The notes under the pieces were generated by a model that was not told the origin of the DNA, did not search any database, and saw only the letters and a list, made by a program, of their open reading frames with translations. The translations under genes were made by a program, and so were the position numbers. 64,000 nt of DNA from Oscillospiraceae bacterium (GTDB lineage Bacteria > Bacillota > Clostridia > Oscillospirales > Oscillospiraceae), in the NCBI GenBank assembly GCA_017861365.1, contig JAGFXR010000006.1, forward strand, positions 62,001 through 126,000. The letters run 5' to 3'. Positions 6,035 through 47,796 of this stretch are shown here, in pieces. Every line of letters begins with the position of its first letter. Position 1 is the first letter of the stretch.

Positions 6035-7411
6035 ATGCTGAACAAAGCTCATATTGAAGATTATATGAAGCCCGGCCGCCGGGCCCATCTGGTGGGAATC
6101 GGCGGCGTTTCCATGTCCCCGCTGGCGGAGGTTCTGGCGGACCGTGGCATGATCATCACCGGCTCGGACATCAGTGAGAGTGAGAAGGTAAAGCACCTGC
6201 GTTCCCTTGGAATGGATGTGGCCATCGGCCACAGAGCGGAAAACCTGGGCGGAGCGGAGTGCGTCATCCGTACGGCGGCGGTTCATGACGAAAATCCGGA
6301 AATCGCCGCCGCCCACGCACAGAATATTCCCGTGTTCGAGCGGGCTCAGGCCTGGGGCGCGATCATGAGGGGATACCAAAACGCGCTGTGCATCTCAGGC
6401 ACCCACGGAAAGACCACCACCACCTCGATGTGCACGCACATCGCCATGGCCGCGGGCAGCGACCCCACCGTGATGATCGGCGGCACTCTGCCGCTGCTGG
6501 GAACCGGGTACCGGGTTGGAAACGGCGGCATGATTATTATGGAATCCTGCGAATATTGCAACTCGTTTCTCTCCTTTTTCCCCACTGTGGCGGTCATCCT
6601 GAATATTGAGGCAGATCACCTTGACTTTTTCAAGGATTTGGAGGACGTGAAGCACTCCTTCCGTGCCTTCGCGGAGCTGACTCCTGAAGACGGCACGATC
6701 GTTGCCAACTGCGAAGACCTCAACACCATGGACGCGCTGCGGGAGATCGGGCGTCCCATACTGACCTTCGGACTGGAGCGGGGCGATGTGCATGGCGAGC
6801 GCCTGTCCTGGAGCAACGGACTCCCCACCTTTGATATTGTGGTGCGGGGAGAGGTCTTCGCCCATGTGTCCCTGAACATACCGGGCATTTATAACGTCAA
6901 AAACGCCATTGCCGCCACAGCGGCGGCCGCAGCCGTAGGGCTGCCGTCGGCGGCGGTGGAGCAGGGACTAAGCGCGTTCCGGGGCGCGGGCAGGCGCTTC
7001 GAACACAAGGGTACTTATCAAGGGGCCGAGATTTATGACGACTATGCCCACCATCCCGGCGAACTGACCGCCCTTCTCAGCGCTGCAAAAGGCCTTTCCT
7101 ATCAGCGGGTCATCTGCGCCTTCCAGCCCCACACCTACACCCGGACCCAGGCGCTTTTCCCCGATTTTATCGAGGCGCTGAAGCTTGCCGACAAAGTTCT
7201 TCTGGCGGAAATTTATGCAGCCAGGGAGCAAAATACCATTGGCATTTCGTCGGCCGATCTGGCAAAGGAGATTCCCGGAGCAGAATATTTCCCCTCGTTT
7301 CCTGCCCTCACCCAGCGGCTGCGGGAGCTTGCCTCCCCCGGCGATTTGATTCTGACTGTGGGCGCGGGTGACATTTACCGCACCGGAGAGGAATTGGTCA
7401 AATCCATCTGA
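6035..7411 (+). CDS. murC: UDP-N-acetylmuramate--L-alanine ligase
   Basis: The 458-residue Mur ligase adds L-alanine to UDP-MurNAc, the first cytoplasmic step of the peptidoglycan stem peptide. The N-terminal Rossmann domain has GIGGVSMSPLAEVL, the central domain the ATP loop GTHGKTTTTSM and NIEADHLDFF, and the C-terminal domain YDDYAHHPGE and FQPHTYTR. Length is normal for MurC. AAAGG lies 12 bases before the ATG. It stands alone behind its own promoter and faces mreB across a shared terminator. Confidence 0.96.
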   Translation: MLNKAHIEDYMKPGRRAHLVGIGGVSMSPLAEVLADRGMIITGSDISESEKVKHLRSLGMDVAIGHRAENLGGAECVIRTAAVHDENPEIAAAHAQNIPVFERAQAWGAIMRGYQNALCISGTHGKTTTTSMCTHIAMAAGSDPTVMIGGTLPLLGTGYRVGNGGMIIMESCEYCNSFLSFFPTVAVILNIEADHLDFFKDLEDVKHSFRAFAELTPEDGTIVANCEDLNTMDALREIGRPILTFGLERGDVHGERLSWSNGLPTFDIVVRGEVFAHVSLNIPGIYNVKNAIAATAAAAAVGLPSAAVEQGLSAFRGAGRRFEHKGTYQGAEIYDDYAHHPGELTALLSAAKGLSYQRVICAFQPHTYTRTQALFPDFIEALKLADKVLLAEIYAAREQNTIGISSADLAKEIPGAEYFPSFPALTQRLRELASPGDLILTVGAGDIYRTGEELVKSI

Positions 7412-7451
7412 GCTCCAAATCGACAAGGCAGTAACATTCCGCAAATGGAAG

Positions 7452-7486
7452 AAATCCTCCGTGCGCCGTGCGCCCGGAGGATTTTT
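7452..7486. terminator. Terminator between convergent murC and mreB
   Basis: A 10-bp stem (7452-7461 with 7475-7484) with a GC-rich interior ends in TTTTT on the plus strand and has an A-rich left base, so it likely serves both genes. Confidence 0.75.
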
Positions 7487-7502
7487 GTACGCCTTTCACA
7501 AA

Positions 7503-8528
7503 TTAATGGTTCATCTGCTTGCGGCGGGAAATATTGATGGTGCCGTCCTGCATGGTGGAGAGCCATTCCAGAGATTTGCCCGTACCGTAGGCGACGCAGG
7601 AAATCGCGTCGTCCGCCACATGGGTCTCAATACCGGTGTGGGACTCCAGCAGCTTGTCAAAGCCCCAAATCAGAGAACCGCCGCCGGTCATGACAATGCC
7701 GTTGGTGGAAATGTCCGCCACCAGCTCCGGTGGTGTGCGCTCCAGAACAGAGTGGATGGTCTCCAGAATGCGGGTGGTCGTCTCCTCAAAGGCCTCAATC
7801 ATCTCGGACGAGGTCACGCTGAAGACACGGGGCAATCCGGTCATGAGGCAGCGGCCCTTAATTTCAGCGGTGACTTCCTCCGGACGGGGAAAAACACATC
7901 CGATGGAACACTTCAGCTCTTCCGCGGTACGCTCGCCAATCAGTACATTATGCTTGCGGCGTATGTACTTGATAATGGCCTCATCAAACTGGTCGCCCGC
8001 AACCTTGATGGATTCTGAGGTGACAATACCGGACAGTGAGATCACCGCCACATCGGTGGTGCCGCCGCCGATGTCCACGATCATGTGTCCATCGGGCTTG
8101 TTGATGTCGATACCGGCTCCGATCGCGGCGGCAAGGGGCTCCTCAATCAGGTAGACGCGGCGAGCCCCCGCCTGAAGGCCGGCGTCGATGACCGCGCGCT
8201 CCTCCACCTCGGTAATACCGGATGGGACGCAGATCACCACACGGGGCTTAAAAATACGGAAGGATACGGACTTGCGGATAAATTCCCTCAGCATCCGTTC
8301 GGTCATATCATAATCGGAGATCACGCCCTCGCGGAGAGGACGGATCGCCACAATGTTGCCGGGGGTGCGTCCCAGCATCCGTTGGGCGTCCGTGCCAACC
8401 TTGAGCAGCTTTCCGGTATTTTTATCCACGGCAACGACAGAAGGCTCCTGAAGAACAATTCCTTTGCCGTCCACATAAACCAGGATGGAAGCGGTACCCA
8501 AATCTATACCGATATCTTTACTGAACAT
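7503..8528 (-). CDS. mreB: Rod-shape-determining actin-like protein MreB/Mbl
   Basis: The 341-residue protein has the actin-fold phosphate loops IGIDLGTASILVYV and VDIGGGTTDVAVIS, and the adenosine motif MTGGGSLIWGFDKLLE. MreB filaments under the membrane guide elongation of the lateral cell wall. No mreC or mreD follows, which suggests an Mbl-type stand-alone paralogue; the two cannot be separated safely by eye. It has its own promoter at 8632-8660 and GAGGTG before the ATG. Confidence 0.93.
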   Translation of the reverse strand: MFSKDIGIDLGTASILVYVDGKGIVLQEPSVVAVDKNTGKLLKVGTDAQRMLGRTPGNIVAIRPLREGVISDYDMTERMLREFIRKSVSFRIFKPRVVICVPSGITEVEERAVIDAGLQAGARRVYLIEEPLAAAIGAGIDINKPDGHMIVDIGGGTTDVAVISLSGIVTSESIKVAGDQFDEAIIKYIRRKHNVLIGERTAEELKCSIGCVFPRPEEVTAEIKGRCLMTGLPRVFSVTSSEMIEAFEETTTRILETIHSVLERTPPELVADISTNGIVMTGGGSLIWGFDKLLESHTGIETHVADDAISCVAYGTGKSLEWLSTMQDGTINISRRKQMNH

Positions 8529-8631
8529 AGTGACACCTCATATTGTATTTTTCTCCGCCCGGCAGATGTTTCTTTCTTGTTTAACGTCAGAAAGTCTATC
8601 CATAGAAAGCGGAAATTATCCCTATTTTTTT

Positions 8632-8660
8632 ATTATATAATGTCTGGTTTTGTTTTTCAA
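8632..8660 (-). promoter_or_regulatory. Promoter for mreB
   Basis: Minus strand: TTGAAA, 17 bases, TATAAT, between the comF stop and the mreB start. Confidence 0.6.
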
Positions 8661-8687
8661 TGGAAAATTGCACGAACATACCGCAAA

Positions 8688-9356
8688 TTAGGTCCGCGCT
8701 CTTGCCAAGGTGGCGCACACCACGCCGGAGGCTCCAGCGGCCCGCAGTACCCGGGCGCACTCTGATAGTGTTGCCCCTGTGGTCATAATATCGTCAATCA
8801 GCAGCACACGCCGCCCGGCAACCAGTTCTGGATCGGCAGCCTCATAGGCGTTGAGGATATTCGCGTGGCGCTCCCCGTCTCCCTCCAGTCCGGATTGGGC
8901 GTCGGTGTGGCGCACCTTTTTCAGCGTCTCCACCGCCACGTCGTCCAGACGCAGGGCCGCGGCCATGGCCAGCAGCATCGCCTGATCATAGCCTCTCGCT
9001 TTGCGCCGCTGCTTTGACAGGGGCACCCATGTGATGAGGTCATACCGCCCGGACAGATGATCCCGGACGCACTCCGCCACCAGAGCCCCGTACGCCTCGC
9101 TGTAGCCTCGGCAGTCCTTAAATTTATAGCGGTGAAAGGAGCTTCGTACCGCATCGTTATAGCGAAGAGGGGAGACTGCCAGAGAAAAGGACTCTCCGGC
9201 CTGTTCCGCGGCAGTGCCGTGCAGCCAGGGCAGAGCATTCCTGCAGCCGGAACAGATATGGCGCTCTCCGCGAAGCAGAAGCCCACGGCAAAAGATACAT
9301 TTGGGAGGAAACAAAAGGTCCAAAAAACCGCTGATCACGCCTGTATGATTCCGCAT
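8688..9356 (-). CDS. comF: ComF family phosphoribosyltransferase-like protein
   Basis: The 222-residue ComF-type protein begins with a zinc-ribbon-like part (PPKCIFC, then CSGCRNALP) followed by a phosphoribosyltransferase domain whose PRPP loop reads VLLIDDIMTTGAT. WVPLSKQRRKARGYDQA is a hallmark of the family. In competent Firmicutes ComF helps move single-stranded DNA inside the cell. Here it lies downstream of recD2. The ATG at 9356 is preferred, ten bases after GGAG; the GTG three codons earlier overlaps the ribosome site. Confidence 0.88.
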   Translation of the reverse strand: MRNHTGVISGFLDLLFPPKCIFCRGLLLRGERHICSGCRNALPWLHGTAAEQAGESFSLAVSPLRYNDAVRSSFHRYKFKDCRGYSEAYGALVAECVRDHLSGRYDLITWVPLSKQRRKARGYDQAMLLAMAAALRLDDVAVETLKKVRHTDAQSGLEGDGERHANILNAYEAADPELVAGRRVLLIDDIMTTGATLSECARVLRAAGASGVVCATLARART

Positions 9357-20447: not shown

Positions 20448-20451
20448 TGTG

Positions 20452-20550
20452 CTACGATATGACTGACGGAAGTGGATGAAACCACATGGAGTATCGATGG
20501 AAGCTTGCCGACCGTCTGGGCGCACTGTCTGATAGTGCGCCCATTTTTTG
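20452..20550 (+). ncRNA. ZTP (pfl) riboswitch
   Basis: The leader of fhs shows the pfl/ZTP layout: an outer helix CGATA (20455-20459) with TATCG (20492-20496), an internal GTGG-CCAC hairpin within ATGACTGACGGA...ACATGGAGT, then the conserved downstream segment CCGACCGTCTGGGC. That segment runs into an intrinsic terminator (stem 20517-20526 with 20534-20543, then TTTTTT). In known ZTP riboswitches, binding of ZMP/ZTP, a sign of low 10-formyl-THF, prevents termination and turns on one-carbon genes such as fhs. Context and motif agree. Confidence 0.85.
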
Positions 20551-28402: not shown

Positions 28403-28485
28403 AGCTTAAGGCTTTTCGGCATAGAGAAGGGCGCGCCGCGGAATCGCCGCGTCGCTCCCTTCTCTATGCCGAAAAGCCTTAAGCT
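28403..28485. repeat. Very long perfect hairpin between convergent genes
   Basis: A 29-bp perfect stem (28403-28431 with 28457-28485) continues inward, after a single C-A mismatch each time, with GCG/CGC and then CGCGG/CCGCG. It is far longer than a usual terminator and lacks a clean T-tract (TAAGCTAGGATT follows on the right), although TTTTTTT lies 12 bases to its left. It lies between the CmpB-type gene and a chemoreceptor gene and may end both transcripts. Confidence 0.8.
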
Positions 28486-39319: not shown

Positions 39320-40850
39320 TCAAACGCGATCACTCTGTTGAATATAGCTGAACGCGTCCCGCTCAAACCACGAATCCTGATAGGGCAGCTTCACAAACCT
39401 GGACAGCCTTTGGGAAAAGCTTGGATTTTCCAGGTGAAACACGATGCTCTTGAGCAGGGCGTATTCGCCGATATACCCGAAAAAGGGCCGTGCGGGCGTA
39501 AACAGGTTGACCGATGGAATTCCCGCCTTGGCAATCCAGCCGTGCTTGCCCGCGTGATCCACCACGATATCGGGTCTGTGGCGTTTGAGCTGATTGATCT
39601 CCTCAAACACCTGGTTGCTGACCGAAATAGGGATTTCAGGCAGTTCCTCCGCCAGCTCCTCATAGACGGGCAGCGCGCCGCTGTCGAAGTGGTATGCCCG
39701 CACGGAGAGCACCTCCAGCCCGCGCTCATTGAGCAGCCTCGCCTCCTCCGCCACGCGGATGACGCCGCCGCCCACCAGAACACGCTTGCCTTTGAGCTTG
39801 GGTAAAAACTCCTGTATTGCCCCGTTCAGGCGATTCTCTTCCTGATCACACAGGAGATTCGCCTGCTCCTCCCTGCCGAAAAACCGGGCGATGGCAGTCA
39901 GCCAGGCCCGGGTCGCCCTCGTTCCCAGGGGCATCCCCTCAATGAGATACGGAATCCGGTAAGTTTCCTCCAGATACTTCAGAATGTAATCGTCATGCAC
40001 GTTGCACATGCTCACATTCAGCGCCGCCTCCGACACAGAGCGCAGTTCATCTCTGGAGCTGTACTCGGCAAAAATCCGCACCTTTAAATCCAGCGCGCCC
40101 AGCAGCCGGACAATCTCACACTCGTCGTCTGCGTTGATGGAGGTTGCGTTAAACAGGTTGACAGTGCGGCTCTTTTCATACCGACGCTTCCCCTGCGCGG
40201 GCTCATATCTCCGATCGCTTCTGTCATAGGGAGTAAAGCCCCGGTATGGCTCGGGTTCAAATGAAATATGACGGATCAGGGAGTGATAAAAAGAATCATA
40301 GGCAGAGGCCACTACCCGGGATTTAAACCCGGGGCAGTGGATGGCGGTCAAATCCGCCGTGACCTCGTCGTGCATGCTCTCCACCACGTCCTCTACATCG
40401 TCTCCAATGATATTCGGAGCACAGGTGGAAATCACAAAGATAATTTCCGGACGAAACTCCCGGTCCGCGTAGCGTATGGTTTCCCTCAGACCGCTCTCCC
40501 CTCCCCCGATAACGTCATTTTGCCGCATGTTGGAGGATAGCCAAATCACCGGTTCCTTTGCGGGCCCGCGTTTTGCCCTTCCGGCCGCCACCGCGCTGGA
40601 GACGCCCGTCAAATTCGCGCCGCAGCCGATGGGGCCGTGCAGAATGATCACGGACCGGCTGATGGTTGCCGCCATCATCAGGGACAGAGACATTTGGCAG
40701 GCATTCGCCTGCCAAATGTCTCTGTCCCTGACGGAAGATGCAGCCGCTTTTGGCGCAGTCGATCAAATCGCGGCCACAGCCGCTGAAGCTGTCGCCGATG
40801 GTCAGGCGCTGGTCTCTGACAGGCGGCTCACCTTGCTCATAATAGCCCAT
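39320..40850 (-). pseudogene. Nitrogenase component 1 alpha (NifD)-like, frameshifted
   Basis: Two reading frames together encode a NifD-like protein of about 509 residues. The 5' part begins at 40850 after GGAGG (MGYYEQGEPPVRDQRLT, then GCGRDLIDCAKSGC). The rest continues one base out of frame from about 40735, where ANACQMSLSLMMAATIS and PIGCGANL follow; read alone it opens at 40693. P-cluster-type cysteines are kept (ACQMS, IGCGAN, STCAPN), and SMCNVHDDYILKYLEE holds a Cys where NifD has its cofactor ligand Cys275. The segment matching NifD's His442 region reads LFTPARPFFGY with no His. This is a nitrogenase-family reductase subunit of unknown substrate, not a classical nitrogenase. A 25-bp palindrome overlaps the frameshift. 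Confidence 0.8.
40678..40731. repeat. Perfect 25-bp palindrome at the NifD-like frameshift
   Basis: 40678-40702 is the exact reverse complement of 40707-40731, with loop ATTC. In the gene's direction the 3' arm encodes conserved residues CQMSLSL, and the 5' arm covers the region where the frame is lost. No T-tract follows, so it is not a terminator. Confidence 0.95.
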
Positions 40851-40862
40851 AATCGCTTCCTC

Positions 40863-41393
40863 CTATTTCCCCGCAACCAAAACACTCAGAATATCTTCCA
40901 GAAGGTGCAGACCGCCCCGATATCCCGCATATCCGCGATCCAGCACCGCCCGGTGATACAGCGGATAGCTCACACCCAAAAGGCTTGCCGCGCGCTTGGC
41001 CGCAAACTCCTTCTCAAAGGAACTGCCAAGAACAAACAGCGGCCCGTCCGCATTGAAGTAAAGCTCACCGTGATAATCAGGATGATTCCTTGTAATTGCC
41101 TGCTCAATTTTCCATGTGTCCGTTTCAAAAATCAGATTCCCGCGCAGTCCAAGCGCCTCAAACCGATCCGCAAGGGTATGCTTCTGGCTCTGGGTCAGCA
41201 CGTCTGTAATCACAACGTCGTGAATCAGCCAGCCAAGCTCCCGTTCCAGAAACCGCGCGTACGGAATCGCCGTGTTGGCGTTGGACACCACCTCAGCAAA
41301 AAATTTAAATTCGGAATCGGCAATTACATCCGCCACCCGCTCCACATACCGGTAATAGATCTCGTTTTCCGACCGGATGACCTCTTCCGCCAC
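40863..41393 (-). pseudogene. NifK-like subunit, 3' part after in-frame stop
   Basis: 176 codons from a GTG, in the same frame as the fragment 41397-42200 and separated from its TAA only by one AGG codon. The sequence continues the NifK-like fold (SENEIYYRYVERVADVIAD, then GPLFVLGSSFEKEFA and GVSYPLYHRAVLDRGYAGYRGG). The two parts add to about 445 codons, a normal length for this family. No ribosome binding site precedes the GTG, so separate translation is unlikely. A point mutation in a once-intact gene is the simplest reading. The NifD-like gene starts 12 bases downstream. Confidence 0.8.
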
Positions 41394-41396
41394 CCT

Positions 41397-42200
41397 TTAA
41401 TTCAGCTTGAGCGCCTGCGCCGTCCGCAGCAGAAACTCCTCTGTGGCCTCAGCTCCTACCGGAAGCTCAGTCACCAGATAGGGCGTCCCGTGCCGCTCCT
41501 GAAACGCCTGCGCCACCTCAACGCCGCGCACAGAGGACAGCACAAGATTCAGCGCGGCCTCCGGCGCGGTTTTGAGATCAGCAAAGGCCTGATCGGCGGT
41601 AAAAAAGGTATTGACCTGCAAGCCCAGGCGATGAAGCAGCCGTTTCAGCTCCTCCAGATCGCCGCGGAAGAACGGGTCAAACAGCGGCACTACCCCAAAC
41701 AGGTTCACCAGATTGGTCCTTTTTTTAGTACGAACGGGGAGAAATTCGTTGAATAAAGCATGCAGGAGAATTTCATAGCCGCCGTAAGCATCCGCTTCAA
41801 AGCTGGGCGTGTTGATGCAAATGACGGGCGCGCCGCCGTCGTCCTGAAATTCCGAAACCACGCCGCTGACATCATCCGCGATAATTTCCGTCATGCAGCC
41901 CGTGGTGACGACAAACAAATCCGCCTCCAGCAGCTCCCTGGCACTTCGGATTTCCTCCTCCAAGCGGTTCCCCCCGCCGAAAATCACGTGCTGCTCGCTG
42001 ATATTGCTCACGGGAACACTCTGCCCGCTGCAATAGCTGGAGCCGCAGTAGCCTGAGTTGGCGGCGGTGGCTCCGCCCAGATTCCCCGCACAGCCGGAGG
42101 CCGTATGAGAAATCGGCACCACTCCCGGCAGTGAGCTGATGGCTGCCAGCGCCCCGCCCAGTGAGCAGGTCGTTCTGGGCCGCTCAATAAAACCCGACAT
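41397..42200 (-). pseudogene. Nitrogenase component 1 beta (NifK)-like, 5' part
   Basis: 267 codons starting at 42200, seven bases after AGGAGG. The fragment has the N-terminal NifK-like half with cluster-type cysteines in RPRTTCSLGGALAA, ASGCAGNLGG and TTGCMTEIIADDV, and ends ALKLN before TAA at 41397-41399; the same frame continues with RVAEEVIRSENE. All three cysteine positions remain, so the domain was functional until recently or could work if the stop were suppressed or corrected. It heads the reductase part of the operon, following two ABC transporter modules. Confidence 0.82.
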
Positions 42201-42215
42201 TTCCATTCCTCCTGT

Positions 42216-42344
42216 TTAATCCGGATACTGATAGAGCGGGGTGGACAGATACCGTTCTCCCGTATCCGGCAGCAAGGCCACAATGACCTTTCCTCGATTT
42301 TCCGGGTGTTTTGCAAGCTGGAGCGCCGCAAAGGCGGTCCTCCC
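42216..42344 (-). pseudogene. cysK: 3' remnant of a cysteine synthase gene
   Basis: The minus strand encodes about 40 residues that match the C-terminus of O-acetylserine sulfhydrylase: [40 protein letters not shown] and stop. Upstream, 42345-42357 still resembles the ISSGA loop at base level but with small deletions. No start, lysine or catalytic core remains. It lies in frame just after the stop of the LolD-like ATPase gene. A full cysteine synthase gene probably once sat between the transporter and the NifK-like gene. Confidence 0.8.
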
Positions 42345-42368
42345 AGATCTCCTTTGCCGTGGTTTGCT

Positions 42369-43055
42369 TTAGGATACGACGTGTACAACCTCCTCCAAGC
42401 GTCCGTGCTTCATGGAAAACACCCGGTCGGAATCGTTGGGAAACATTATATCATGTGTACTGACCAGTACCGCGACGCCTTTGTCGCGGATGCGCTGGAA
42501 CAGCTTTAAAATCATCACGCTGTTTTCCGGATCCAGATTACTGGTCGGCTCATCCGCTATGATCAGGGAGGCGTGGCTCACCAGCGCGCGGGCAATGGCT
42601 GCCCGTCTGGCTTCTCCGCCGGACAGTTCATGGGGGTAAGCATTCCTCAGATGCCAAATACCCAGCTCCTCCAAAATGCTCCTCACCTCGCCGGCGGTGC
42701 CTTCCGGTTTGATATTCCGTCCCTGAACAAGCGGCATGCAGACATTTTCCAGTACGCTGAAATTCAAAAGCAGGTTTTTTTCCTGCAAAATATATCCGAT
42801 CGTTTGATTTCGAAGCGCGGACAGTTCCCTCCCGCCCGCACTGTGCACAGGGAAGCCGTCAATCCAGATTTCTCCCTCGCTTGGCCGAAGCATTCCGGTC
42901 ATCAGATGAAACAGCGTGCTTTTACCGCTTCCGGAGGGGCCGACGATACTGGCAAGCTCACCGGAGCTGATGCTCAGCGAGACCTGATCCACAGCGGTGA
43001 CGCTGTGACCTTGATGTTCAAATCTTTTTGAAACCCCAGTCAACTTCAATACCAT
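42369..43055 (-). CDS. ABC transporter ATPase, LolD/MacB type
   Basis: The 228-residue ATPase has Walker A VGPSGSGKST, Q-loop ILQEKNLLLNF, signature LSGGEARRAAIA and Walker B LIIADEPTSNLD. Its sequence type pairs with FtsX-like permeases rather than with importers, so its partner is the FtsX-like protein at 44277-45485. Start at 43055 after AGGAGG. Together they would form a MacB-like mechanotransmission or export unit, within an operon that also carries an importer. Confidence 0.9.
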   Translation of the reverse strand: MVLKLTGVSKRFEHQGHSVTAVDQVSLSISSGELASIVGPSGSGKSTLFHLMTGMLRPSEGEIWIDGFPVHSAGGRELSALRNQTIGYILQEKNLLLNFSVLENVCMPLVQGRNIKPEGTAGEVRSILEELGIWHLRNAYPHELSGGEARRAAIARALVSHASLIIADEPTSNLDPENSVMILKLFQRIRDKGVAVLVSTHDIMFPNDSDRVFSMKHGRLEEVVHVVS

Positions 43056-43094
43056 CGGCAAATTCCTCCTAAGCGGTCAGCGGTTGGTTACATG

Positions 43095-44234
43095 TTATGT
43101 GCTTTCTGTAAATTCCTGCGTATCCGGGTCATAGGTCATACTGTCCGGCACACCGTCCAGCTTCACATAATGCTGGCTGATAAATTCATCTACATCGGTG
43201 CTGTCACTCAAATCGCCAGTTTCCTTCAACTCTTTCACGCAGTTTTCAAAGGTTTCCAGACCCGCGCTGACAGACGGAGAATAGTTGTAGGACTCCAAGA
43301 GCTTTGCGTTGGTGTCCAGATCGCCTGAGCAGAACCCGTTATTCAGCTGAATCTCCGCCGCCTGCTCCGGCTCCGCCTGAATAAAGGCCGCCGCCTCCTG
43401 CAATGCTCTGGTATAGGCCGCCGCGCCTTCGGGCGAGGTGCTGACCAGGTCTGCCGAAACGTATGCCTGGCAGCAATACTCACCGGCAAATTTTTCATCC
43501 GTCCCTGTGTCCAAAATCAACTTAAACCCATACTCCTGCTGCGCCTGATAGCCCACGGGGTCATGCAGGGCCACGGCGTCCACCGCTCCGTTCTCCAACG
43601 CCAGCGGCAGGTCGGTGAGGGAATATTCCGCAAACGTCACTTCAGAGGGATCAATTCCAACCTCAAGTAATTTTCGTTTCAGATTCATGGTGGAGGAGTC
43701 GGACAGCCCCGGCACGCCAACGGTCTTGCCCTTCAAATCCGACACGGAGTTAATGGAAGAATCACTCTTGACAAAGTATTTGGTGCATCCGGTATGTAGC
43801 CCTGTCGTAAACACAATATCCAAGCCGTTGTCAATCGGCTGAATCAGGCTTGCCGTCAGGCCGAAGCAGGCGTTGATTTTTCCCGCCGCCAACAGCTCAG
43901 CCGCCTGGGTCAGATCCACCTCTTCATAGCTCCAGGTAATACCCGCCGCCGCAAATTCCTTTTCAAAATATCCGTTTAAATAAGCCAGATGAACAGGCGC
44001 CACGCACAGGCTCCCCTTTGCAAAGCCGATTTTGACCACGGCCTGATCCGATGAGGTCTGCGTGGACGTGGTGGTGCCGTCACCCGTGGAGACGGTTTCC
44101 GTGGCGGACGCTTCGGTGGATGCGGTTCCCGCCGCCGCGCTTTCCGAAGCGGAGTTTCCGCACGACGGCAACAGAGTTACCATGAGTATCGCGGTCAGGA
44201 AAAGCGCCACTGTTTTTTTCATTCTTGTCATCAT
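43095..44234 (-). CDS. Lipoprotein substrate-binding protein, SsuA/NMT1-like
   Basis: The 379-residue protein has a lipoprotein signal (LFLTAILMVTLLPSCG, lipobox Cys about 26), a Ser/Thr-rich linker, and a periplasmic-binding-protein type II fold of the NMT1/SsuA group (KIGFAKGSLCVAPVHLAYLNG, then LKGKTVGVPGLSDSSTMNL and VDAVALHDPVGYQA). Such proteins deliver sulfonates, nitrate, taurine or thiamin precursors to SsuBC-type importers. The ligand cannot be assigned. It would work with the permease and ATPase at the operon's 5' end. Confidence 0.85.
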   Translation of the reverse strand: MMTRMKKTVALFLTAILMVTLLPSCGNSASESAAAGTASTEASATETVSTGDGTTTSTQTSSDQAVVKIGFAKGSLCVAPVHLAYLNGYFEKEFAAAGITWSYEEVDLTQAAELLAAGKINACFGLTASLIQPIDNGLDIVFTTGLHTGCTKYFVKSDSSINSVSDLKGKTVGVPGLSDSSTMNLKRKLLEVGIDPSEVTFAEYSLTDLPLALENGAVDAVALHDPVGYQAQQEYGFKLILDTGTDEKFAGEYCCQAYVSADLVSTSPEGAAAYTRALQEAAAFIQAEPEQAAEIQLNNGFCSGDLDTNAKLLESYNYSPSVSAGLETFENCVKELKETGDLSDSTDVDEFISQHYVKLDGVPDSMTYDPDTQEFTEST

Positions 44235-44276: not shown

Positions 44277-45485
44277 TTATTCGCCGCTTGATTTAATTAA
44301 CGCAATGCCGTCAAGACGCGCCAGACTGTAATAGGACTTTACCGATGCCAGGGCACATACCAGCAGATTCGTGCAAAACGCGTACGCGCCGTTTTTGGCA
44401 AGCTCAGTTCCCCCCAGCCTCAGGTATGGAATGGATAAGGACTGCCTGATGGCCTCATGAAACGGAATCGTAATCAGGCAGACCAGACCGATCCCAATGG
44501 CCGTTGAGGTCACCGCCACCAAGAGCAGCTCCGACAGCAGCATGAGCAGAATGCGTTTTTTCTCTGTGCCGAAGGAAAAATAGGTCCCGAATTCCGCTTT
44601 TCGCAAATGAATGATCACAGAATAGATGCCATACAGGGCAATCACGGCCATCAGCAGGAAAAGTCCCTGAAAAATGGTAGCGTAGCTAATATAATTTTTC
44701 AGCTCGTCTGAAAAACGCCCCACCAGGTCGCTGTTGGTATAAACCGCAATTCCTTCATCCGCATATTGGCTCATCAGCTCTTCCTTCACCTTGGCGCTGT
44801 CGTCTCCCTCCTTCAGCTTCACCAAGACCATGGAGATGACCTCCTCATCCTTTTGAAACGGCAGAACATTGTCATAATCCGGGTCATTGGCAATCTGGTA
44901 TGCCGCCTCATAGCTGATAAAGGCACAGCTGTCATATCCCATTCCGGTTTCCTCCAGCACGTCAATGACCGTAAAATTCCGCCCAAAATATTTGACCACA
45001 TCACCTACCTTCTTATTCATGCTGCTGCCCACGATGATTTCATCGTCCGCAACGCTATGGATTCCATCCTCCGACAGCCACGGCGCAACCGCGAAGTCAC
45101 TGTTGATGTCAAAGGCAATCAGCTGCATTGACGTTTCGCAGCAATCGGAGTTCAGGGAGGAGAGATAGAGCTGATAACTGACCTGCTCCACTCCTTCCTC
45201 CGCTGAAATTTTGTCCAGCCAGCTTTTATCAAAATTCACGGTACACGGTTTCCCTAAAAAAAGGGCATCCTCAATACTTGATACGAATCGATTCGGAACC
45301 ACGATGATATCCGCCCCGAGCCGATCTTTTGTTTTCTCCAGTCCCTCTTTCATGCTCTCTGCAAGAGACGCGCTGAAAAAAACAGTCAGTGCCGTAACCG
45401 TAAGAAGCGCCGTTAAAATCACGGACTGAAATTTCTGCCGCCTGAGATTTTGAATCGCCACCCACCAGATGGTTCTGTTTTTCAT
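44277..45485 (-). CDS. FtsX/MacB-like permease
   Basis: The 402-residue protein has one N-terminal helix (about 20-42), a large extracytoplasmic MacB_PCD-like domain (about 45-255) and three C-terminal helices of the FtsX fold, with a conserved TYFSFGTEKKRILLMLLSE loop. It contains an SDCCETS pair of cysteines outside the membrane. It should pair with the ATPase at 42369-43055. Its first four bases overlap the end of the DUF4418 gene (ATGA type). Confidence 0.85.
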   Translation of the reverse strand: MKNRTIWWVAIQNLRRQKFQSVILTALLTVTALTVFFSASLAESMKEGLEKTKDRLGADIIVVPNRFVSSIEDALFLGKPCTVNFDKSWLDKISAEEGVEQVSYQLYLSSLNSDCCETSMQLIAFDINSDFAVAPWLSEDGIHSVADDEIIVGSSMNKKVGDVVKYFGRNFTVIDVLEETGMGYDSCAFISYEAAYQIANDPDYDNVLPFQKDEEVISMVLVKLKEGDDSAKVKEELMSQYADEGIAVYTNSDLVGRFSDELKNYISYATIFQGLFLLMAVIALYGIYSVIIHLRKAEFGTYFSFGTEKKRILLMLLSELLLVAVTSTAIGIGLVCLITIPFHEAIRQSLSIPYLRLGGTELAKNGAYAFCTNLLVCALASVKSYYSLARLDGIALIKSSGE

Positions 45486-45895
45486 ATCACCCCAAGTCCT
45501 TTACCACGCTTGAGTCCCCGCAGTATGTTGATCACGGAGGCCACCATGACCACGATGGCAGTCACGTAAAATGAGGGAAATGTGACGCTTTGGCATTCCA
45601 TTCCCTTCATGTCACATCCCCCAATGAGAACACTGGGAATCAGGATCGCCACAAGGCTGTTTACAACTGCGATGCCGGACAGCAGCGCCCGCTCTCTCTG
45701 GGTTTTGGTCACAGCGTAAAGAACTGCAATGCCGACCAGCAAAATGGCAACGCCGAATTCCGCACGAACGCTCCAGTGACATCTCATAACCGTGTCGCCT
45801 GTCGCCTCGCAGACCTGAAACACTGTGTGCGGGCCCAGAGTATAAACAACCGCCGCTAGCAAATAGATTCCCGTAATCCAGACATTCTGTTTCAT
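45482..45895 (-). CDS. DUF4418 family membrane protein
   Basis: The 137-residue protein has four predicted transmembrane helices and the family's marks: GPHTVFQVCEATGDTVMRCHW after helix 1 and GGCDMKGMECQS between helices 3 and 4, which place four cysteines on the outer side. DUF4418 proteins are often found beside FtsX-like permeases, and the 4-base overlap here supports a joint complex. Role unknown. The start at 45895 is set by AAGGGGTG. Confidence 0.82.
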   Translation of the reverse strand: MKQNVWITGIYLLAAVVYTLGPHTVFQVCEATGDTVMRCHWSVRAEFGVAILLVGIAVLYAVTKTQRERALLSGIAVVNSLVAILIPSVLIGGCDMKGMECQSVTFPSFYVTAIVVMVASVINILRGLKRGKGLGVI

Positions 45896-45925
45896 AACGC
45901 ACCCCTTCTCTTCCATACTGCTTAC

Positions 45926-46711
45926 CTACAAATAATAATCCGGCGTCTTAATTTCGCCTCCGAAGTTCAAAATCTCCAGAATTTCGGTGCGATAGCGGAT
46001 AAAATCGTCCTGGTTACGCGCTCTCGGCCTTGTCATTTCAATGTCAATAATGGTTTCAATTTTAGCCGGCCTGGGTGACATGACAACCACCTGATCCGAC
46101 AGGTAGATGGCTTCGTCCACGTCATGGGTCACCATCACCACGGTCATATTGTGCTCCGACCAGATTCTAAGGATTTCATCCTGCATGTTCATACGGGTGA
46201 AGGCATCCAACGCACCCAGCGGTTCGTCCATCAGCAATACCTTGGGATGGCCGACCAGCGCTCTTGCCAGGGACACACGCTGGCACATCCCGCCCGACAG
46301 CTGATGGGGAAACGACTTTTCAAAACCCTTTAGTCCCACCAGCTCAATCAATTCATCCACTGTTTCCTTCTTTTCTCTGTATTCATGACGTGCCCTGAGG
46401 CCAAAGGCGATATTTTCTCTGATATTCAGCCACGGGAACAGATTGGCGGACTGAAACACAAATCCCCGCTCATAATGCGGCCTGTCGATGACGACCTCAT
46501 CCAGAAGCAGCGCTCCTCTGGTCGGGGCGTCCAGCCCCGCGATCAAACGAAGCAGCGTCGTCTTTCCGCACCCCGACGGCCCGATCAGCGACACAAATTT
46601 CCCGGGTTTAATATCCAGAGACAGTCCGTTTAGGGCCACAACATCCGCTTCCCGAGGATCGGGATTTACAAAGGTCCTCACCACATCGCAAATTTTGATT
46701 TCTCCTACCAT
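45926..46711 (-). CDS. ABC transporter ATPase, SsuB/TauB type
   Basis: The 261-residue ATPase has Walker A IGPSGCGKTT, Q-loop FVFQSANLFPWLN, signature LSGGMCQRVSLARAL and Walker B VLLMDEPLGALD, the nitrate/sulfonate/taurine importer type. It powers the permease encoded just upstream, with which it overlaps by seven bases. The start at 46711 is set by GGGGGTGATCAA. Confidence 0.92.
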   Translation of the reverse strand: MVGEIKICDVVRTFVNPDPREADVVALNGLSLDIKPGKFVSLIGPSGCGKTTLLRLIAGLDAPTRGALLLDEVVIDRPHYERGFVFQSANLFPWLNIRENIAFGLRARHEYREKKETVDELIELVGLKGFEKSFPHQLSGGMCQRVSLARALVGHPKVLLMDEPLGALDAFTRMNMQDEILRIWSEHNMTVVMVTHDVDEAIYLSDQVVVMSPRPAKIETIIDIEMTRPRARNQDDFIRYRTEILEILNFGGEIKTPDYYL

Positions 46712-47664
46712 TTGATCACCCCCTTTTGCCAAATCAGAAGCTTATCCCGCATCTTAAACAGGAGTGTTAAAATGGTTGTGCACATCACAGCGATAATCAT
46801 AAGCCCCGCGTATACACCGGAATAGACCATCATCTGCTTGGCATGATTGACATACCACCCAATGCCGCAGGAGCTGCCCATCAGCTCAGCCACCATGAGC
46901 GTAATAAACGATGAGCAGGTTCCATAGAAAACGCCCATAAAAATACTGGGCATCGCATTGGGAATTCCCACCTTAAATACCTGATACAGTGTGCTCGCCC
47001 CCAGCGTGCGGGAAACCTCGTAATAAGAGTTATTGGTGGCCCAAATGCCGCTGCTGGTCATCAGCGCGGTGGGAAACCAAACCGCAAATGCAATCAAAAA
47101 CACACTGGCGTCATAGGTTGCCGGGAAAACCGACAGCGCCAGCGGCGTCCAGGCCGTGGTCGGCATGGGTCCCAGCACCTTCGTCACCGGATTGAGCCAG
47201 TATGCAACCTTTTTATTGAAGCCCAGCAGCAAGCCGGTGGTAAGCCCGATGCTCCCTCCCCACGCAAAGCCGATGATTAGCAATTTCAGGGAAAAGAGAA
47301 CACACTTTACAAGCAGCGCGCCGTCGGTGACATATACCTCCAGCACCCGATCAATATTGGGAAAAAATAAAGCGGGAAGCAGCGTGAGCTTTGCGGTGAT
47401 CACATTCAGGATATTAAAAAACAAAAGGACTCCGGCATAAAACGGGCCGGCATCAACCAGCTTGCGTTCCAATTTCTTAAACCGGAAGGACAGCACAAAC
47501 AGCATCAGAAAGATGACCACTGCCAGAATTAAAAAATAAGTGAAATATGGCCTTTCCGCTTCCTTTTGTTTCTCCGAATTATGTAATACCACTTGCAGAA
47601 GCAGGGCAAAGGCAGCGGATAAAATCGGAATCAGTTTTTTCAAGTAATAGATTGCGCGTTTCAT
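46705..47664 (-). CDS. ABC transporter permease, SsuC type
   Basis: The 319-residue permease has about seven helices. The BPD_transp_1 domain (from about 115) has the ATPase-contact loop EVSRTLGASTLYQVFKVGIPNAMPSI. An extra N-terminal part with two helices joined by a charged linker is unusual for SsuC proteins. First gene of the operon. The ATG at 47664 has GGGGAG eight bases upstream, and the leader contains a terminator hairpin. Confidence 0.9.
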   Translation of the reverse strand: MKRAIYYLKKLIPILSAAFALLLQVVLHNSEKQKEAERPYFTYFLILAVVIFLMLFVLSFRFKKLERKLVDAGPFYAGVLLFFNILNVITAKLTLLPALFFPNIDRVLEVYVTDGALLVKCVLFSLKLLIIGFAWGGSIGLTTGLLLGFNKKVAYWLNPVTKVLGPMPTTAWTPLALSVFPATYDASVFLIAFAVWFPTALMTSSGIWATNNSYYEVSRTLGASTLYQVFKVGIPNAMPSIFMGVFYGTCSSFITLMVAELMGSSCGIGWYVNHAKQMMVYSGVYAGLMIIAVMCTTILTLLFKMRDKLLIWQKGVIKW

Positions 47665-47690
47665 TGGCTCAACTCCCCTGTATGGACAAA

Positions 47691-47736
47691 ATAAAAACTG
47701 GAGGCAAAGCATGCGGCATACATACTTTGTCTCCAG
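47691..47736 (-). terminator. Leader terminator of the ABC/nitrogenase-like operon
   Basis: On the minus strand a stem of about 16 bp with two mismatches (47698-47736) is followed by TTTTTATTTTG. It lies between a consensus promoter and the first gene of the operon, the position of an attenuator. I do not recognise an aptamer in the roughly 50 bases before it. Confidence 0.7.
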
Positions 47737-47796
47737 ATGACTGGTCAACTCAATGCATATTAAATTCATGTATATTATATGTTATTTATGTTCAGC

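Follow-up and report, generated by a model that had tools for sequence, protein, structure and literature searches.

A window of 64,000 nucleotides from a draft Oscillospiraceae genome, which is the whole stretch of DNA analysed here, holds an operon for a group-IV nitrogenase-like reductase that has probably been inactivated recently. Three adjacent genes are broken in the contig: a cysteine synthase gene (cysK) by deletions, the gene for the K-like subunit by a nonsense codon, and the gene for the D-like subunit by a frameshift that is likely to have arisen through a template switch. The frameshift lies within a perfect inverted repeat, one arm of which is conserved as coding sequence; the repeat and the lesions are absent from the relatives examined, in which the genes stand in a recognisable operon context.

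Lesions in the K-like and D-like Genes

The K-like gene (42206-40863) and the D-like gene (40850-39320) are both encoded on the minus strand and both match PF00148. An in-frame TAA at 41397-41399, reported in the initial annotation of the NifK-like gene, is borne out. It cuts the gene into an N-terminal part of 269 aa that it terminates (41397-42206, minus strand; ORF and Pfam evidence) and a downstream C-terminal part of 176 aa (40863-41396, minus strand; ORF and Pfam evidence), and the two ORFs joined form one PF00148 match that covers positions 1-398 with a single TAA within. Three cysteines of the N-terminal part align with the MarK cysteines and are retained.

The D-like gene changes frame after its first 40 residues, the last 457 being read in another. 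The first 40 codons, in the original frame, occupy 40731-40850 of the minus strand and show 55-64% identity to the relatives L052, L053 and L054, while the 457-aa remainder (39320-40693, minus strand; ORF and Pfam evidence) is out of frame with the gene's own start. The gap between the two pieces measures 37 nt in the window vs 36 nt in the same three relatives, and the net change is therefore one base. The one-base frameshift described for the NifD-like gene thus stands, but not its placement near 40735, since the extra base lies somewhere in 40715-40730, slightly downstream. The cluster-type cysteines said to remain in both subunits are indeed there: the D sequence has all three, the first of them in a frame other than that of the start, and the K sequence has three.

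The cysK Remnant and Neighboring Genes

The pair of lesions originally described holds up, but a third lesion, in cysK, and the inverted repeat had been overlooked. The cysK remnant (42225-42375, minus strand) is found only in pieces, by comparison with cysK of relatives, whose full-length genes are cysK by NCBIfam with scores over the cut-off. The segment 42225-42347 gives a strong match to residues 270-310, and 42337-42375 a short and weak match to residues 156-168 in another frame. The remnant adjoins K upstream. Sequence reaches beyond K in 18 clade loci, and 16 of these have a cysK match there; no such match lies just before K in L078 and L080. The genome of the bacterium itself contains two other PALP-family genes that are strong matches and open, plus one weaker match.

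Upstream of the remnant, a series of open genes follows on the minus strand. An LolD-type ABC ATPase (42369-43061; Pfam/NCBIfam), which at its end shares a few bases with the cysK remnant, is followed by an NMT1/SsuA-like substrate-binding lipoprotein (43095-44234; over the cut-off for Pfam NMT1, below it for NCBIfam SsuA), an FtsX/MacB-type permease (44277-45485), a DUF4418 protein (45482-45916), an ABC ATPase (45926-46732) and an ABC permease (46705-47769), the last two having homologues near the D/K genes of several relatives. All 15 neighboring genes with Pfam matches are open, although they were chosen from a list of open frames, and between 33106 and 61944 no unassigned gap between presumed genes exceeds ~310 bases. 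Apart from K, D and cysK, the stretch shows no gene with an obvious break.

Identity of the Enzyme

Judged by its sequence, the enzyme is a predicted group-IV nitrogenase-like reductase whose nearest solved structure is that of methylthio-alkane reductase and which falls outside the MarD clade. Bearing on this prediction are the PF00148 domain in both subunits, the P-cluster-type cysteines, a position outside NifD/NifE, and matches to NifH and to NifB-type radical SAM genes, each at 10 of 20 clade loci. The best solved matches of both subunits are 9fmg and 9d9u, equally; 9fmg is the methylthio-alkane reductase MarDK of R. rubrum (PMC12552129). Identity to MarD is ~32% over the D residues compared. 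Likeness to MarDK is seen in this best solved match, in the equivalents of the cluster residues Cys270 and His429 and of His375, all present in the window D, and in the P-cluster-type cysteines. The differences lie in Arg428, His194, Trp195 and Phe199, none of them conserved, and in a separate clade of the D tree. Arg428, next to His429, is proposed as a hallmark of MarD in PMC12552129; the window has Asp at this position, and Arg occurs there in none of 80 relatives (the best 80 of 358). The S2B-site residues His194, Trp195 and His375 of MarD correspond to Val, Val and His in the window, so that one of three is kept, and the equivalent of Phe199 is not conserved.

The earlier statement that no FeMo-cofactor histidine is recognisable does not hold for this family, since a histidine of the MarD His429 type is present in the window and, like the Cys270 equivalent, in 80/80 relatives (best 80 of 358). 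The position of NifD His442 is taken by Phe in the window and by Phe, Trp or Tyr in all of the same best 80 of 358. The 457-aa piece scores 107.2 bits against the NCBIfam nifD equivalog, with a cut-off of 653.55, and the scores for the nifD, nifE, BchB, BchN and CfbD equivalogs are all far under their cut-offs. In a tree of 44 D rows, chosen by the authors, with no CfbD or Bch sequences and with MarD represented only by 405 residues, the window pairs with L074 in a 21-row group (100/100), itself within a 38-row group (97/99) that does not include MarD. MarD falls together with two other rows (97/91), and the window is placed outside NifD/NifE. Family searches agree with the initial annotation in making the reconstructed proteins nitrogenase-like, and this tree (without CfbD/Bch) separates the D from MarD as well as from NifD/NifE. 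One relative, L053, has a second D/K pair (6257-9038) whose D carries Arg-His at MarD positions 428-429 and groups with MarD.

Two other systems invite comparison. The isethionate reductase IsrBHDK of R. capsulatus unites nitrogenase-like HDK subunits with a radical SAM protein and an Ssu transporter and serves to obtain sulfur (PMC11423573, in excerpt); the likeness lies in this combination of nitrogenase-like HDK, radical SAM protein and Ssu transporter for sulfur acquisition. According to the same excerpt, IsrD has only one of the three P-cluster cysteines and no equivalent of Cys275, and on that description isethionate reductase is ruled out by the cysteine pattern, as the window D has all three together with the Cys275/270 equivalent. 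Among the other group-IV Nfl/Nfa proteins, the D of Heliophilum fasciatum (L126) and two D of Paenibacillus (L114, L133) belong to the 38-row clade of the window. Most of these proteins are left without a known function in PMC9147875 as excerpted, which records a proposal of N2 fixation for one Heliophilum pair. The window's subclade differs from them in having cysK adjoining K.

Conservation of the Genes in Relatives

A scan of species genomes yielded 358 relatives, of which the best-scoring 80 were kept, a selection that favours complete genes. Isolate codes hint at a termite source for many of the relatives, but no such codes turned up in PMC9137090, and this origin is not claimed. Among these best 80 of 358, none has a stop inside the D match, and a single one, L078, has stops inside the K match. 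The K-like gene of L078 (1541-2840, a Gracilibacteraceae draft) is frameshifted near its C end, at another place than in the window, and its adjoining D is open. Several partial K matches end at contig ends, and those of L069 and L130 start late (at residues 126 and 76, respectively). Comparison with related genomes thus indicates that the lesions of the window are not shared.

The age of the lesions, like their order, we infer. When each member of the clade was left out in turn, the window was found to differ at 4/107 D columns on which the 20 other members all agree and at 4/103 K columns on which 17 others agree; L068, L069 and L078, whose K genes are partial or broken, were left aside in the K test. 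Open relatives have 0-6 such differences in D and 0-8 in K; when rows are ranked by broken invariant columns, the window takes third place among 21 in D and shares second place among 18 in K. The window K is also the row least similar to the others on average (0.52). Because conserved residues show no unusual loss, the lesions would be recent, or else errors. Long-standing decay is unsupported, there being no excess of losses at invariant sites, and the recent loss of the system put forward from the beginning gains support from three adjacent broken genes with open homologues in other species.

A Perfect Inverted Repeat at the Frameshift

The one-base frameshift is contained in a perfect 25-bp inverted repeat with a 4-nt loop (40678-40731), which we interpret as a putative template-switch scar. 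The arm at 40678-40702 is, base for base, the reverse complement of that at 40707-40731; folded as RNA, the 131-nt stretch around them reaches -81.3 kcal/mol, against an average of -44.8 for shuffled sequences (z -9.51). Read in the direction of the gene, the arm that comes second codes for ACQMSLSLMM, a stretch conserved in relatives, with a cysteine present in 80/80 (best 80 of 358). Relatives encode, for example, QGRRFWQA where the window has the first arm, and in the window this arm now matches the reverse complement of the second at every base.

The repeat is peculiar to the window among the sequences compared. The motif was recognised in 72 of the best 80 of 358 relatives, the eight others being left out of the measurement; the longest perfect repeat near it is 3-8 bp, and a 25-bp repeat occurs in none of the 72. 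When synonymous codons were sampled 30,000 times for 20 homologous peptides, the arms never exceeded 11 bp, and 1,321 samples reached 10 or 11. A 10-bp core can thus come from the codons of the motif, and 25 bp was never reached. The open D gene of L078 contains such a core, its arms 8 bp long and its loop 4 nt. Among the 18 clade loci with a recognised motif, 8 have a 5-8-bp repeat centred on it and the other 10 have none.

Rfam models gave no known RNA element at the hairpin at gathering thresholds. Elsewhere in the window, Rfam finds a ZMP/ZTP riboswitch (RF01750, 52.8 bits) at 20449-20528 on the plus strand, and 28403-28485 forms a hairpin with 39-nt arms that are 95% complementary. Repeats of at least 18 bp were also counted within genes. 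Mechanically called frames of the bacterium's own genome (361,041 bases, about a quarter of it) contain 3 vs 0 in synonymous shuffles, and the loci of the best 80 relatives (711,660 bases) contain 1 vs 0; the repeat of the window falls outside this count, as the called frame starts inside it. No excess of in-gene palindromes is claimed, several of them lying at doubtful gene starts or being terminator-like. One, on contig C19 of the same genome (L148, 5184-5232), is a perfect 22-bp inverted repeat with a 5-nt loop, set in an open histidine kinase gene, where it overlaps the end of the HisKA match.

Probable Template Switching and Alternative Explanations

The D frameshift is most likely the product of a replication template switch at a quasi-palindrome, an event deduced from one natural sequence. 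The Phe-Trp-Gln-x3-Cys-Gln-Met motif is conserved, and its codons can pair as an imperfect inverted repeat. While the DNA was being replicated, the growing strand would pass the conserved arm, fold back, copy its own finished arm and return to the proper template, and this fold-back copying could yield the perfect 25-bp inverted repeat and the extra base in a single event. The D sequence before the mutation has to be deduced, because the closest relative, L074 (Clostridium sp. LS), shares only 70% identity in D. For E. coli, template switches at quasi-palindromes have been described that make the inverted repeat perfect, and reporters show that such mutations can shift the reading frame (PMC7202029, in excerpt), and quasi-palindrome mutations of this kind also occur in coding genes of yeast (PMC8604942, in excerpt). 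The likeness, as far as these excerpts go, is that an imperfect inverted repeat turns perfect; the difference is that no event has been witnessed in the present case.

One may go further and ask whether the Phe-Trp-Gln-x3-Cys-Gln codons (TGGCA...TGCCA) are an inherent hotspot of template switching, offering a recurrent route to inactivation in a cluster-binding site. The centred repeats at 8/18 clade loci and the 1,321/30,000 synonymous samples of at least 10 bp speak for it; the 10/18 loci without a centred repeat and the lack of a second scar among the relatives examined speak against it, and we regard it as a rather doubtful, tentative idea. If it were true, the same scar would be expected independently in other lineages.

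The lesions could instead be sequencing or assembly errors, in which case the bacterium would have unbroken K and D genes and the contig two wrong sites. The initial annotation had offered linked assembly errors as the alternative to loss, and we consider them unlikely, ranking them below decay. The draft has 26 contigs and a completeness of 74%, a frameshift is found in the K gene of another draft, L078, as well, nonsense and one-base lesions are the kind that errors typically produce, and the absence of an excess of lost invariant residues is equally what errors would leave. Base-calling, however, would not remove long stretches of cysK, and the frameshift is no lone indel, being accompanied by a block of sequence that gives 25 matching base pairs; the open state of the 15 neighboring Pfam genes is a weaker point against errors, as they were drawn from a list of open frames.

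It is very improbable that the pieces are functional as they stand, with K made as two polypeptides and D from an internal ATG at 40693. Start codons do exist inside both breaks (a GTG follows the K stop), and invariant residues are mostly kept, but a D begun at the internal ATG would lack the first P-cluster-type cysteine, which is conserved in 80/80 relatives, and a split D is found in 0/80 (both among the best 80 of 358). Recoding, by which a hairpin would stimulate frameshifting in D and the K stop would be read through, is highly improbable. The repeat would give a very stable RNA hairpin (the fold of the 131-nt stretch given above) and conserved residues are not lost, yet two separate events would be required and cysK is broken in any case. 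Nor is the shared stop and frameshift that recoding could have left in homologues to be found: D is interrupted in 0/80 relatives (best 80 of 358), the repeat is present in 0/72, and the column of the K stop is a sense codon in 17/17 aligned K genes. Insertion of a mobile palindromic element of the REP/MITE type into D, suggested by the long perfect hairpin within the gene, is barely credible, as the net gain is +1 against three relatives, whereas an insertion would add ~50 bp, one arm encodes a conserved motif, and the draft has no second close copy (an 18-base arm probe against the 1.69-Mb draft finds both arms and one other site with 3 mismatches).

Operon Context and Inferred Function

In relatives, the core of the operon is cysK-K-D. 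The 20 clade loci frequently lie on short contigs. Among them, a binding protein is encoded near D/K in 10, as often as NifH and NifB-type proteins, and PatB-type C-S lyase matches occur in 5. The gene models of relatives exceed the cut-offs for nifH, cysK and C_S_lyase_PatB and stay below that for nifB. The window has kept the transporter genes in an order that differs from that of relatives and accompanied by the DUF4418, FtsX and LolD-type genes; among 89 partly overlapping relative loci searched, DUF4418 and FtsX were each found in 1. From the gene neighbors and distant homologues, the likeliest role of the system would be the acquisition of sulfur from organic compounds. The enzyme would cleave C-S bonds and hand the sulfur to cysteine synthase.

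The draft itself contains a NifB-type gene over the cut-off and, at 74% completeness, no NifH over the cut-off, while a strong NifH is present in 18/20 of the other D/K-bearing genomes compared. The view that this is an orphan system without NifH was set aside, its absence not being established in a draft so incomplete. Contig C26 of the same genome carries a second, open D/K pair (L061, 7868-10587), whose D has a gap at MarD His429 and near which lie matches to PatB-type and cystathionine-type genes of relatives.

Significance

As gene decay the case is ordinary, with one mutation that can be read unusually well; both the kind of enzyme and the type of mutation are known. No earlier report of this combination was found in the open-access literature, a search that does not by itself show its absence from print. 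The locus is a natural example, still readable, of a metallo-enzyme gene that was apparently put out of action by a template switch at its cluster-binding motif. The clade to which it belongs has members in genomes of Bacillota, Spirochaetota, Synergistota and Fusobacteriota, and with cysteine synthase as a steady neighbor of this group-IV reductase, the substrate of the enzyme becomes a testable question of sulfur metabolism.
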